64,000 bases of DNA. It comes from an uncultured Lachnospiraceae bacterium. Lineage in GTDB: Bacteria > Bacillota > Clostridia > Lachnospirales > Lachnospiraceae. Under the pieces are notes generated by a model that did no database searches, had not been told where the DNA came from, and saw only the letters and a program-made list of their open reading frames with translations. Made by a program: the position numbers and the translations under genes. This document shows positions 48,059 to 51,753 of the stretch, piece by piece. The DNA lies in assembly GCA_947625775.1 (NCBI GenBank), contig CANQPM010000003.1, forward strand, positions 1 through 64,000. The letters run 5' to 3'. Position 1 is the stretch's first letter, and the number at the start of each line of letters is the position of its first letter.

Positions 48059-48122
48059 TTCACAACAAAATAAGGTCTGTTTACAACATGGAAAATCAAT
48101 CAAGGATGTATTAAAATATAAT
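48059..48122 (+). promoter_or_regulatory. LytTR direct-repeat site A with promoter of the response-regulator gene
   Basis: TTCACAACA (48059-48067) and TTTACAACA (48080-48088) are separated by exactly 12 bases, the 9-12-9 layout of LytTR-domain binding sites. TATAAT follows at 48117-48122 without a good -35, as expected for an activated promoter. The response-regulator start is at 48210. Confidence 0.7.
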
Positions 48123-48209
48123 TTAGAAGAAAAAGACGATTTGAGTCGATCCGGAGTCATCGCCTGCGTGGGTGTTTTAAGGTTAAGAGAAGATCGAGGA
48201 GGTGAATAT

Positions 48210-48983
48210 ATGGAAGTTTTTCGTATGCAGACAGGTACGGACAAATCAATAGCACAGGAGACTGCCTATATAGCGATTTGTGATGATGAGCCGTTTATAC
48301 GGGACAGCCTGAAGGAAAAAGTAGAGAAAGCTTTTCCGCAGGCTCGTACAGAGCTGTTTTCTTCCGGCGGCGAGCTTTTGGCGAGCGGCATACAGCCGGA
48401 TATTTTGTTTTTGGACATACAGATGCCAAAGATGGATGGAATGGAAGTGGCAAGGCTTTTTAGAAAGCAGAATAAAGATACCCTCATTATTTTTGTCACA
48501 GCGCTGGAAGAATATGTTTTTCAGGCGTTTGACGTAGGGGCTTTCAATTATCTGGTTAAGCCTTTTTCGGATGACAGGTTCTATGAGGTTTTTGAAAATG
48601 CGATGCGGGAAGTGGAAAACCGGAAAGCAGGCGGGAAAGAAAATGATGAAGACTATATGATGATACAGATGGGCGGAATCCACACAAAGATACGGCTCAA
48701 AGACATTGTATATGCGGAAGTGTTCAATCGGAAAGTCATCATACATACGGTAAACGGTGATACGGAATATTACGGCAAGCTGTCCGAATTGGAAGAAAAG
48801 GTGGGGGAGGACTTCTTCCGGTCACACAGGTCTTATCTGATTCATTTTAAGTATGTGATGAAATATGATGCTGTATCCATCACCATGAAAAACGGGACTG
48901 CATTGATTGCAAAACAGGTATATCCTGAATTTGTGAAACGATATTTTAAATATAATCAGAAGAAAGGCAGGGAAATCAGGTGA
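48210..48983 (+). CDS. LytTR-family response regulator
   Basis: 257 residues from ATG 48210 with GGAGGTG; longer in-frame readings run through the promoter. The receiver has ICDDEPFIRD, phospho-Asp in LFLDIQMPKMDG, VTALEEY and the Lys in YLVKPFSD. The C-terminal LytTR domain (about 150-250) has the characteristic IVYAEVFNRKVIIHT, FFRSHRSYLIHFKYV. The family binds paired 9-base repeats, and such pairs flank this gene set. The kinase gene overlaps it by four bases (GTGA). Confidence 0.92.
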   Translation: MEVFRMQTGTDKSIAQETAYIAICDDEPFIRDSLKEKVEKAFPQARTELFSSGGELLASGIQPDILFLDIQMPKMDGMEVARLFRKQNKDTLIIFVTALEEYVFQAFDVGAFNYLVKPFSDDRFYEVFENAMREVENRKAGGKENDEDYMMIQMGGIHTKIRLKDIVYAEVFNRKVIIHTVNGDTEYYGKLSELEEKVGEDFFRSHRSYLIHFKYVMKYDAVSITMKNGTALIAKQVYPEFVKRYFKYNQKKGREIR

Positions 48984-50320
48984 GTTCGGTTGAATTATGC
49001 TGGAACGTTACATCATATCTGTCTATTATTGTGCAGTTGATCATGGCGGGCGTTTGTCTTGGGATATTCGTAGCGCCTTATCTGCAGGAACGAAAGAAAG
49101 CGGTCAGCGTGGGAGCGGTTTATGCAGTGGTTATGACGGTTTTATATGTCATGCCGCCCCAGATAGACAATATCCTCGCATATTTTCTTGGCGCACTGGC
49201 GGCATTTTTTGTGATGTTCATGGAGGAGAGGCGGAATGTCAGTCAAAAGATATTCCTGTCGGTAACGTTCTTCTCGCTGCGCTCGTTATCACTTTCTATG
49301 GAAAGTATTCTTATGGTTTTTCTGCGTCGGTTTTGCATGAATCCGGAGTTTGCAGAAAAAGTGTGGCTACAATATGGATTGTATGCGGCAGGCAGGATTA
49401 TAGACATACTGCTTGGCTTTCTGTTCCTGTTCCTGTCTTTTTGGGAAGTAAACAGGGTTTATACGGACAAAAACAGACATATGGGAAAAAGCGAGCTATT
49501 GATGCTGATTGTCCCATCGCTGTCGGGAGTGGCTGGCAATGTGATTTTCAATTTTTATCAGGTAAAATTTGATATAAACGGCATTTATGATGTGATTTGC
49601 TTCCTGTATTATTTGATTTCCGTGGCAACGATCCTTGTCGTGATTATTGCGCTCCAAAACTGGAAAAGACTGCAGAACGAGCAGATGGGGCAGGAGCTTT
49701 TGGAAAGCCAGATAAGTGCGATTAAAACGCATATTGATGAAGTGGAGAAGCTGTATGGCGACATTCGTTCCCTGCGCCACGACGTGGGAAACCATATCCA
49801 GATGATCGAGCATCTGATGGCGGTGGGAAACAGCGCCGAGGCATCCGCCTATCTGGAAAGGCTGAAAGATGAATGGCAGGAGCTTACGCCTGAGATCCGG
49901 ACGGGAAATCCGGTCATGGACATGATCCTTTTGGAAAAGAAAAAAGAAGCCGAGGCGAGGGGCGTTCGGTTTGAATGTGATTTCCGCTATCCAAACGGAA
50001 CAGGGCTGGATGCTTTTGACGCCAGCGTTATCTTATACAATGCGCTGAATAACTGCATGGAGTCAGTAAATGGGGCAGAACCGTATATTAAAATCCATAC
50101 GTTTCAAAAGGACAGTGTTTTTATGCTGATGATTAGTAACAGCTTTACGGGAAGGCTTACGCATGGCTCTGATGGACTTCCGCTCACTACCAAAAAGGGC
50201 GGCGGACATGGAATTGGACTTAAAAACATACAGAGAGTGGCAAAGAAGTATATGGGGTACATATCTGTTGAACAGAGTGGAGATGAGGTCACTGTCGGCA
50301 TTATGCTTCAGATTCTTTAA
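48980..50320 (+). CDS. GHKL-type sensor histidine kinase (AgrC-like)
   Basis: 446 residues, GTG start overlapping the regulator stop. Six hydrophobic helices fill residues 1-220, followed by a coiled segment, the phospho-acceptor His in RSLRHDVGNHIQMIEHL, and a GHKL ATPase with NALNNCMESV and the GGGHGIGLKNI nucleotide loop. It should phosphorylate the adjacent LytTR regulator. AgrC-type kinases often sense peptides, but no propeptide or AgrB-like gene is visible here, so the signal is unknown. Frequent CGG, CCG and GGA codons contrast with the core genes. Confidence 0.9.
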   Translation: MSSVELCWNVTSYLSIIVQLIMAGVCLGIFVAPYLQERKKAVSVGAVYAVVMTVLYVMPPQIDNILAYFLGALAAFFVMFMEERRNVSQKIFLSVTFFSLRSLSLSMESILMVFLRRFCMNPEFAEKVWLQYGLYAAGRIIDILLGFLFLFLSFWEVNRVYTDKNRHMGKSELLMLIVPSLSGVAGNVIFNFYQVKFDINGIYDVICFLYYLISVATILVVIIALQNWKRLQNEQMGQELLESQISAIKTHIDEVEKLYGDIRSLRHDVGNHIQMIEHLMAVGNSAEASAYLERLKDEWQELTPEIRTGNPVMDMILLEKKKEAEARGVRFECDFRYPNGTGLDAFDASVILYNALNNCMESVNGAEPYIKIHTFQKDSVFMLMISNSFTGRLTHGSDGLPLTTKKGGGHGIGLKNIQRVAKKYMGYISVEQSGDEVTVGIMLQIL

Positions 50321-50324
50321 TGGC

Positions 50325-50386
50325 TTTACAACATAATAAGGGCGATTCACAACATGGCTATTGATTTCTGTAAATTTTCTTACGAT
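50325..50386 (+). promoter_or_regulatory. LytTR direct-repeat site B downstream of the kinase
   Basis: TTTACAACA (50325-50333) and TTCACAACA (50346-50354), again with a 12-base spacer, and with much of the spacer sequence (AATAAGG) shared with site A. A weak -10-like TACGAT lies at 50381. It faces the damaged genes starting at 50479. Confidence 0.7.
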
Positions 50387-50478
50387 AAACTTTACAGAAG
50401 GATGACATTACGGCAAATGGCAGCAATGGGAATACAGAAACGGATTTCAAATCAGTAAAATTCAAGGAGGACGAAACT

Positions 50479-50649
50479 ATGGCAATGGAGATTACAAACA
50501 ACTACAACGCATATGAGAATACCTATGCGGCACAAAAACAGCAGGAAACAGCAAAACAGAGAGCTGCTTCAAAACAGGAAGTATCGGAAATGACAGCTGC
50601 ACAGAAAAATTCCAATACAGAAAACAGCAAGGCAAGGGGAATTACCTGA
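50479..50649 (+). pseudogene. N-terminal fragment of a Lachnospiraceae-type protein (possibly DUF6033)
   Basis: An ATG behind CAAGGAGG opens a 56-codon ORF, MAMEITNNYNAYENTYAAQ followed by a Gln/Lys/Ser-rich stretch, then an abrupt TGA. The start resembles the N-terminus of longer DUF6033-type proteins (recalled, not searched). Its last codons overlap, in another frame, the remains of a nitrogenase-like protein, so the ORF is probably the left part of a deletion junction. Confidence 0.5.
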
Positions 50650-50765
50650 ACATAGCATGGCCAGTGCAGGATAAAGTAGTGCTGGATGACTTCTATGCAG
50701 GATACATTGGCGGCATTCGGCTGATCGAGGATATTTACACGGTCGCAGTACAGAGATTTAATTAG
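50634..50765 (+). pseudogene. C-terminal remnant of a nitrogenase component 1-like protein
   Basis: Frame from 50634 to TAG 50763-50765 encodes about 43 residues with no start codon of its own, including NIAWPVQDKVVLDDFY, AGYIGGIRLIEDIYTV. The YIGGIRLIEDIY ending is typical of NifD/NifK/NifE-type (nitrogenase component 1) C-termini. Everything upstream is lost; the frame fuses to the fragment before it. The NifX-like gene begins 14 bases later, as expected of a nitrogenase-like cluster. Confidence 0.65.
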
Positions 50766-50779
50766 CAGGAGGTTTTCCT

Positions 50780-51277
50780 ATGTTTTATAAGATAGCGGTC
50801 GCATCCTCGGATGGAATACAGATTGATGAAACCTTTGGCGCTGCAAAGAGATTTCTGATTTATGAAGTGGAGGACGGCGCATACAGAAGGCTGGAGGAAA
50901 GGGCGGCTGATGAGGACAAGACGGACCGCAGAGGCACACCGCAGGAATCCAGCTTTCAAAACGCCTGTAATGAAAAAAGCGCCTGCAGTGCAGAAAGCGC
51001 CTGTCACGCAGAAAGCGGGTGCGGAAACGGCACAGGAGGCGGATGCGGCGGCGCTGGGGAAGCGTCTGCAAAGGTGGAGCTTGTATCAGACTGCAGGTGC
51101 GTAGTCTGCAAAAAGATAGGATTTCACATACAAAAACAACTGGAGCGGAAGGCGATCTCGTCTTTTGATGTCACTTGTCCAGTGGAAGAAGCATTGGAAA
51201 AGATTTCCCATTATTTTACCAAAATGGATAACCATGAGTCTTTACGGGTGCAGAAGCCAGATACCCCGCAGGAATAA
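50780..51277 (+). CDS. Dinitrogenase iron-molybdenum cofactor-type (NifX/NifB-C-like) protein with Cys-rich insert
   Basis: 165 residues; AGGAGG precedes the ATG. The N-terminal strand and loop MFYKIAVASSDGIQIDETFG and the end SSFDVTCPVEEALEKISHYF match the Di-Nitro_FeMo-Co domain, which carries metal-cluster precursors. The family His after the first loop (usually HFG) is Thr here (TFG). The middle is replaced by a Cys-rich stretch with cysteines near 63, 69, 74, 81 and 89, plus CRCVVC near 104-109, giving eight possible cluster ligands. It follows the nitrogenase-like remnant, so its original client is gone or elsewhere. Confidence 0.8.
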   Translation: MFYKIAVASSDGIQIDETFGAAKRFLIYEVEDGAYRRLEERAADEDKTDRRGTPQESSFQNACNEKSACSAESACHAESGCGNGTGGGCGGAGEASAKVELVSDCRCVVCKKIGFHIQKQLERKAISSFDVTCPVEEALEKISHYFTKMDNHESLRVQKPDTPQE

Positions 51278-51283
51278 AGAAAG

Positions 51284-51303
51284 ACGGACGAAATTTTGTC
51301 TGT
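51284..51303 (+). promoter_or_regulatory. Candidate operator of the Rrf2 gene
   Basis: ACGGAC and GTCTGT form an imperfect inverted repeat with an 8-base spacer, directly before the AGGAGG site of the Rrf2 gene. Autoregulation is common for this family. No other support. Confidence 0.35.
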
Positions 51304-51315
51304 AAGGAGGTTCTT

Positions 51316-51753
51316 ATGAGGATATCAACAAGAGGTAAAAACGCAATCAATCTGATGCTGGATCTGGCGACGTATCATCAGGGAGAGCCGGTAAGACTCA
51401 AGGATATCGCAAAAAGGCAGGATGTATCTGAAAAATATTTGGAGCAGATTATTGCAGTGCTGCATAAGGCAGGTCTCGTAAAAAGCATCCGTGGTGCGCA
51501 CGGAGGATATGTCTTGGCTTATCCGCCGGAAAGATATACGGCAGGTCAGATATTAAAAGCGGTCGAGGGGGATCTGGCTCCGACGGATTGTGTCGGTGAA
51601 AACGGCTCAGAGTGCGAAAATAAAGGAACGTGCGTCAGCTACCGTTTATGGAAAAAACTGGACGAGGCGGTCAATGATGTACTGGAGGGTATTACTCTGG
51701 CGGATATGCTGGATTGGCAGAATGAGCTTCTGAGCGATCAATATATAATATAA
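51316..51753 (+). CDS. Rrf2-family iron-sulfur transcription regulator
   Basis: 145 residues. Winged helix (RLKDIAKRQDVSEKYLEQII) followed by RGAHGGYVLAYPPERYTAGQIL, and three cysteines in CVGENGSECENKGTC (spacing C-x7-C-x5-C), the ligands of an IscR/NsrR-type cluster. It may sense iron-sulfur status or nitric oxide. TAAGGAGG precedes the ATG. Its place after a cofactor-carrier gene suggests it controlled the lost nitrogenase-like locus. Confidence 0.88.
   Translation: MRISTRGKNAINLMLDLATYHQGEPVRLKDIAKRQDVSEKYLEQIIAVLHKAGLVKSIRGAHGGYVLAYPPERYTAGQILKAVEGDLAPTDCVGENGSECENKGTCVSYRLWKKLDEAVNDVLEGITLADMLDWQNELLSDQYII

Follow-up and report, generated by a model that had tools for sequence, protein, structure and literature searches.

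We identified two predicted LytTR binding sites in a 64,000-nucleotide stretch of DNA from an uncultured Lachnospiraceae bacterium (the window). One precedes the gene of a LytTR-type response regulator and the other directly follows the gene of the adjacent sensor kinase. The promoters behind such sites differ in type, which is newly found here: those of the regulators usually contain a TATAAT −10 element, those of the target operons a sigma-28-type −10 element. Our preferred reading, to which we assign a probability of about 0.72, is that the regulator would act at both promoters, with autoregulation through TATAAT and co-activation of the targets together with sigma-28, followed by CsrA control of the target leaders.

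Organization of the locus

The locus comprises the following features, all on the forward strand.

48059–48088, +: LytTR-type direct repeat 1, TTCACAACA-N12-TTTACAACA, in the regulator promoter (exact match)
48117–48122, +: −10 element TATAAT in the promoter of the regulator; it begins 29 nt past site 1 (from the sequence)
48210–48983, +: response regulator, REC + LytTR, 257 aa (Pfam PF00072, 1.1e-20; PF04397, 1.9e-16)
48980–50320, +: sensor kinase with GHKL ATPase, 446 aa (Pfam PF14501, 2.8e-21), overlapping the regulator stop
50325–50354, +: LytTR-type direct repeat 2, TTTACAACA-N12-TTCACAACA, in the target promoter (exact match), directly 3' of the kinase stop
50382–50388, +: sigma-28-type −10 element ACGATAA; CGATA starts 29 nt past site 2
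50437–50448, +: GAAACGGATTTC, leader motif of the CsrA-like ANGGAN loop type (from the motif count in the genome and the promoter classes)
50464–50470, +: Shine-Dalgarno sequence AAGGAGG of the remnant gene (from the sequence; leader layout common to many relatives)
50479–50649, +: 56-codon remnant of a DUF6033-family gene (47/52 identity to an L078 protein; Pfam on its own gives nothing)
50643–50765, +: end of a frame (..GGIRLIEDIYTVAVQRFN) adjoining the DUF6033 remnant (from the translation; no Pfam match)

The REC and LytTR domains of the regulator and the GHKL domain of the adjacent kinase all exceed the Pfam cut-offs. The kinase further contains six hydrophobic segments, as judged by hydropathy, and an RHDVGNH box. 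Both repeats match TTYACAACA-N12-TTYACAACA with zero mismatches and enclose the regulator and the kinase, as the first-pass annotation had reported. Its figure of about 28 shared bases out of 33 has to be corrected to 27 of 33 with the trailing TGG, the likeness as such being real. It had also described the sites as bracketing the two-component system. Regulator and kinase do lie between them, but there is no special bracketing: the sites belong to two promoters, one of the regulator operon and one of the next operon. The 9-12-9 spacing, taken in the annotation as a LytTR layout, matches the published arrangement of direct repeats upstream of a promoter (PMC6193735). The sigma-28-type −10 element and the CsrA-like leader motif of the second promoter had been missed. 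A scan of the window at three mismatches yielded one more, weak match besides the two sites; in 100 shuffles of the window the mean was 0.21 matches and none reached 3. Judged from layout and conservation, the LytTR reading of the repeats as predicted binding sites is well supported.

Site 2 had further been expected to control the genes from 50479 onward. It does head a target promoter, but the gene at 50479 is only a 56-codon DUF6033 remnant, so this control is largely a relic in the window. The first 52 residues of the remnant are 90% identical to a protein of 276 aa, encoded by a close relative at its C24-type locus, and then the gene is broken off. The region behind it (50643–51753) contains the truncated frame together with genes for a NifX-type protein and for an Rrf2 regulator; two loci may have been fused here by a deletion. 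The segment 50643–50765 has what we take to be a resemblance to a nitrogenase-type C-terminus; this was not accepted as an assignment, as it is a resemblance only and Pfam gives nothing.

Occurrence of the repeats in the genome and in relatives

A scan of the organism's own genome (3.75 Mb), proposed in the first-pass annotation to tell a regulon from random scatter, gave five exact copies: two in the window (contig C3), two on C22 and one on C24. All are located at LytTR regulator-kinase loci. Three further copies have one mismatch; two of them, on C10, contain an AAGG-type spacer, and the third (C5:41915) was rejected as a regulon member for lack of this spacer. Ten matches have two mismatches. 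Altogether, up to two mismatches, there were 9+9 real matches as compared to 2+2 for the reversed-pattern control. The C22 and C24 loci each contain a LytTR regulator and a kinase as well, and C10 has two sites and no LytTR regulator there. The genome encodes 11 LytTR domains, and only three of them, those of C3, C22 and C24 (C24:14613), are associated with these sites. Given the two additional regulator-kinase pairs and the regulator-less target locus on C10, the window regulator may act in trans, and cross-talk may occur among three pairs with near-identical sites in one genome.

The exact half-site pattern is present in 12 of 299 genomes of the family, our own included; the reversed control had no match in any row. 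A spacer-aware pattern identified 65 stretches in GTDB species genomes, 58 of them titled Lachnospiraceae, Roseburia (R. faecis and R. inulinivorans among them), Eubacterium, Lachnospira or with broader labels, and seven from Flavobacteriia. One record titled Bacteroides (L089) was counted with the family, because its FliA coordinates are the same as those of the family genome G094. The window locus is 95% identical over 4.2 kb to L080 from an uncultured Lachnospiraceae bacterium. Two sites per stretch were found in 11 of the 65, at a spacing of 2215–2252 bp; the window pair is 2266 apart.

The order site, regulator, kinase, site and FlxA-, DUF6033- or FliD-like gene recurs among the relatives. 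Sites of the regulator type are mostly located 44–201 bp before the open reading frame of a LytTR regulator. In most relatives the distance from the kinase to the site behind it is 5–71 bp, with values of 85 in L070 and 299 for the C22 paralogue, and the next gene is usually of the FlxA, DUF6033 or FliD-like kind. Four records (L037, L042, L064 and L065) contain other site-headed operons with several small proteins, most of them without a Pfam match among those scanned; in L065 a DUF3879 gene lies upstream of the site. Four of the Flavobacteriia sites (L052, L094 and L100 from Maribacter, L054 from Muriicola) share the half-sites and the AAGG spacer, have no CGAWA and lie within about 0.2–1.4 kb of an open reading frame with a weak match to the regulator (23–36% identity).

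Two classes of promoters

Sites that agreed over an 80-base key entered the count a single time. From their neighbours, 62 sites were classed by hand as regulator promoters (28) or target promoters (34). The two atypical sites of L059 and L074 and the seven Flavobacteriia sites were kept apart. Two members of the regulator class were assigned on other grounds: L049, truncated at the end of its locus, for the likeness of its promoter, and L068 for fragments of a kinase. The short target site L051:7950 was dropped from the following counts.

CGAWA is present in 34 of 34 target promoters, at +28 after the site in six and at +29 in 28; these counts are not independent, since homologous loci share descent, and removal of near-duplicates leaves 19 of 19. 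About half of the target −10 elements read CGAAA instead of CGATA. As background, windows of equal size taken from these loci contain CGAWA in 1905 of 72698 cases (2.6%). CGAWA was found in none of the seven Flavobacteriia sites and in neither of the two atypical sites. An exact TATAAT, in contrast, occurs in 24 of 28 regulator promoters (23 of 26 without L049 and L068) and in no target promoter (0/34). With near-duplicates removed, the numbers are 15/19 and 0/19. In a sample picked without regard to the spacer, CGAWA stands at +28 or +29 in 10 of 11 relatives' sites with an AAGG-like spacer, L032 being the exception, and in none of four sites without such a spacer; nine of the 11 are loci of the spacer-aware set, and only L028 and L029 are new.

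The regulator promoters also contain CGAWA, between +27 and +32, in 22 of 28 cases (21 of 26 without L049 and L068); it is absent from six, including that of the window, where no CGA precedes the TATAAT copy. CGA stands directly before TATAAT in 19 of these 24 regulator promoters, compared to 10 of the 642 TATAAT sequences elsewhere in these loci. Together with the nearly equal distance from site to −10 element in both promoter types, this fits a rival account, namely ordinary LytTR autoregulation with the housekeeping sigma factor reading both promoters and CGA as a mere feature of the class. A position of LytTR repeats directly 5' of TATAAT promoters also corresponds to the published norm (PMC6193735). 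This account has no ready place for the complete lack of exact TATAAT in the target class, and the evidence presented in the next section further reduces its probability.

Proposed link to the flagellar sigma factor

The consensus of Butyrivibrio sigma-28 promoters is given as TAAA(N16-17)MCGATAa (PMC3720852). Its −10 part, MCGATA, resembles the CGAWA found in target promoters at fixed spacing; the element of the window reads ACGATAA. The −35 element TAAA is absent 15–17 nt upstream in the target promoters, which show a weak TTTAnT at this position (TTGATT in the window).

The genome encodes FliA at C3:182582 (264.5 bits). Among site-bearing genomes FliA scores over the cut-off in 35 of 38, compared to 152 of 299 family genomes (Fisher 4e-7, uncorrected for kinship and for genomes present in both sets, as the family control overlaps the site-bearing set). 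For this count one locus was taken for each of 38 of the approximately 41 distinct genomes outside the Flavobacteriia; L051, L057 and L063 were left out. The three genomes without FliA over the cut-off are L055, L059 and L074. L055 is a MAG with a typical target promoter.

Two DUF6033-family genes appear to be served by sigma-28 in the canonical manner. In the genome under study, three of four DUF6033 genes are in site-headed operons, as are both FlxA-family genes. The fourth DUF6033 gene (C7) has no site and is preceded by TAAAGTTT...TCCGATA about 75–100 bp before its start, a canonical promoter of the TAAAG...CCGATA type. The second site-less case is a gene of L042 with a BLAST match to DUF6033 proteins, located behind TAAAGATTT...GCCGATA. 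In Escherichia coli, flxA is FliA-dependent (280 to 2 in a fliA mutant; PMC4183435).

Sequences of the type TAAAG...CCGATATATA were observed in seven of eight flagellin loci fetched from the genome. Only those on C14 and C19 are directed at the flagellin; five are located about 1.4 kb upstream of it on the opposite strand. Genome-wide, the pattern TAAA-N14-17-SCGATA is not enriched (71+70 matches, 86+71 for the reversed control) and was rejected as evidence by itself, because it does not exceed the control.

These data weigh against the housekeeping sigma factor as the reader of both promoters. The targets include flagellar-type families, the genomes with sites are mostly FliA-positive, and the FliA-negative L059 and L074 have neither CGAWA nor, in the stretch retrieved, any usual target. 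In addition, the two site-less DUF6033-family genes have canonical sigma-28 promoters. We therefore consider the rival account unlikely and favour co-activation of the target promoters by the regulator and sigma-28.

Target genes

The assignment of the FliD-like target family is based on Pfam: ten of 11 members contain the FliD_C domain (best E-value 7e-10), the protein of our own genome alone giving no Pfam match. The assignment does not draw on a profile search against the PDB, in which FliD came first at E = 0.1 and an unrelated protein followed at 0.16, nor on a Foldseek search with the predicted fold (mean pLDDT 66.7), in which FliD caps came first at E = 0.04.

At the C24 locus (L020:7418–8137 and the matching places in L044, L055 and L078) the first target gene is present as three alleles in four records. 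The allele proteins are 31–63% identical or align at the start alone, the flanking DNA is 93–100% identical by block, and the allele boundaries are sharp. Divergent alleles between near-identical flanks suggest that the first target gene has been replaced repeatedly. This exchange between close relatives, and the presence of several copies per genome, would also be expected if the repeats were a mobile or selfish family travelling with these genes rather than LytTR sites. We regard this as hardly credible, as the distance to the −10 element is fixed while the flanks diverge, and the viral contigs scanned with the spacer-aware pattern gave no match. In the following, the repeats are treated as putative LytTR sites.

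A CsrA-like motif in the target leaders

The motif GAAAYGGAKTTC, a short stem with an ANGGAN loop, precedes AGGAGG in 23 of 33 target promoters, leaving ten without it, compared to none of 27 regulator promoters (L049 and L043 were dropped as short). Seven copies are present genome-wide (1+1 for the reversed control). Five of them lie in target leaders, including the one in the window, and behind the remaining two no open reading frame of 60 codons is present on that strand. Close variants of the type GAAACGGA(A)nTTC are found in six of seven readable flagellin leaders of the genome. The flagellin leader on C19 has a different GGA hairpin, and one flagellin is located at a contig end. In a hexaloop test, L105 and L106 passed and L109–L111, with slightly different loops, did not.

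GAA-ANGGAN-TTC occurs in 32 distinct leaders, one with GTA/TAC flanks, two of the three core pairs being fixed by the search pattern. When the stem was compared with shuffles, two further pairs reached p = 0.02–0.03 and the remaining four did not; the outer pairs barely covary. The folding energy of the window leader is no better than that of shuffles (z = 1.29), and a claim for RNA structure from folding energy was rejected on this ground.

The genome contains seven csrA genes (C8, four on C9, C14 and C19), each followed on its own strand by a flagellin gene at a distance of about 0.29–0.37 kb. These apparently private csrA-flagellin pairs involve seven of the 11 flagellin-N matches. Bacillus subtilis hag is under sigma-28 control. 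CsrA represses it by binding to a leader GGA and the Shine-Dalgarno sequence, so that ribosome binding is blocked (PMC7652899). Most of the target leaders described here likewise contain a GGA element, but the input is a two-component system and the outputs are FlxA, DUF6033 and FliD_C proteins instead of flagellin. Control of the target leaders by CsrA is plausible but unproven.

Proposed mechanism and comparison with known systems

Based on the sites and the two promoter classes we propose the following mechanism. The membrane kinase would sense an external signal and phosphorylate the LytTR regulator. Bound to site 1, the regulator would boost its own operon from the TATAAT promoter in a positive feedback. 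On site 2 it would act with RNA polymerase containing FliA (sigma-28) to switch on the downstream operon of FlxA-, DUF6033- or FliD_C-type genes. The CsrA-like leader element could then link translation of the targets with assembly of the flagellum, in the manner of flagellin. In the window itself the output operon has decayed, and the regulator may act in trans. Directly observed are the repeats with their location, spacing and conservation, the families of the genes and the joint occurrence with FliA. From these patterns we infer regulator binding, the use of sigma-28, CsrA binding, a signal, and activation rather than repression.

As to the last point, the regulator might instead be a repressor that keeps the target operon off until the signal arrives. 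Site 2 could block access of RNA polymerase, and our results do not separate the two modes of action. Such a role appears very improbable, however, as the sites end approximately 7 nt upstream of the expected −35 position, near the 10 bp described as typical of activating LytTR repeats (PMC6193735), and both promoter types have a poor −35 region, which usually calls for an activator.

A LytTR Regulatory System (LRS) contains a LytTR protein without a REC domain, paired with an inhibitory membrane protein and without a kinase; the locus described here has both REC and GHKL domains and falls outside this definition. The HdrRM and BrsRM systems and AgrA likewise have, just before a promoter, direct repeats of 9 bp with a spacing of about 12 bp, and are autoregulated, but the half-sites tabulated for such systems, including Roseburia intestinalis, are of the type ACCNCTTAY, compared to TTYACAACA with an AAGG spacer here (PMC6193735). 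The present system differs from them further in its combination of a REC-LytTR regulator with a GHKL kinase and in the sigma-28-type target promoters. Neither AgrB nor AgrD was found among the six open reading frames of the locus given to Pfam, and the overlap of regulator and kinase leaves no room for a gene in between. In Clostridium difficile, also a gut Firmicute, the LytTR regulator AgrA is needed for flagella, and loss of agrA lowers most flagellar genes; the terms 'binding site' and 'direct repeat' are absent from that paper (PMC3754575). Here, in contrast, a defined site stands on auxiliary flagellar-type genes and no agrB or agrD was found beside the pair.

Few examples of activator-dependent sigma-28 promoters are known according to the cited account (PMC2859248). 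In E. coli aer and trg, which are activated by CRP, the activator likewise acts upstream of a sigma-28 promoter (PMC2859248). In our case the presumed activator is a LytTR regulator, the TAAA −35 element is missing and many species are involved. Searches of the open-licence PMC literature brought up no description of LytTR sites at sigma-28 promoters, and those for LytTR direct repeats in Lachnospiraceae, for DUF6033 and for Roseburia FlxA returned nothing. Each half of the proposed scheme, LytTR autoregulation and CRP-activated sigma-28 promoters, has thus a precedent, and the combination appears to be without a known report.

Control of sigma-28 promoters is mainly ascribed to the sigma factor together with its anti-sigma factor. 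In a wider interpretation, for which we see the odds as evenly balanced, the system would be a coincidence switch in many motile gut Lachnospiraceae: the LytTR system and the flagellar sigma factor would both be needed at one promoter, followed by CsrA, for the production of auxiliary flagellum-exported or filament-tip proteins. The allele-swapped first gene at one locus would be as expected under pressure from host immunity, phages or rivals. If true, two-component wiring on sigma-28 promoters would show how an outside signal selects flagellar accessory proteins in gut bacteria, and the DUF6033 and FlxA-like families would gain a testable regulatory context.
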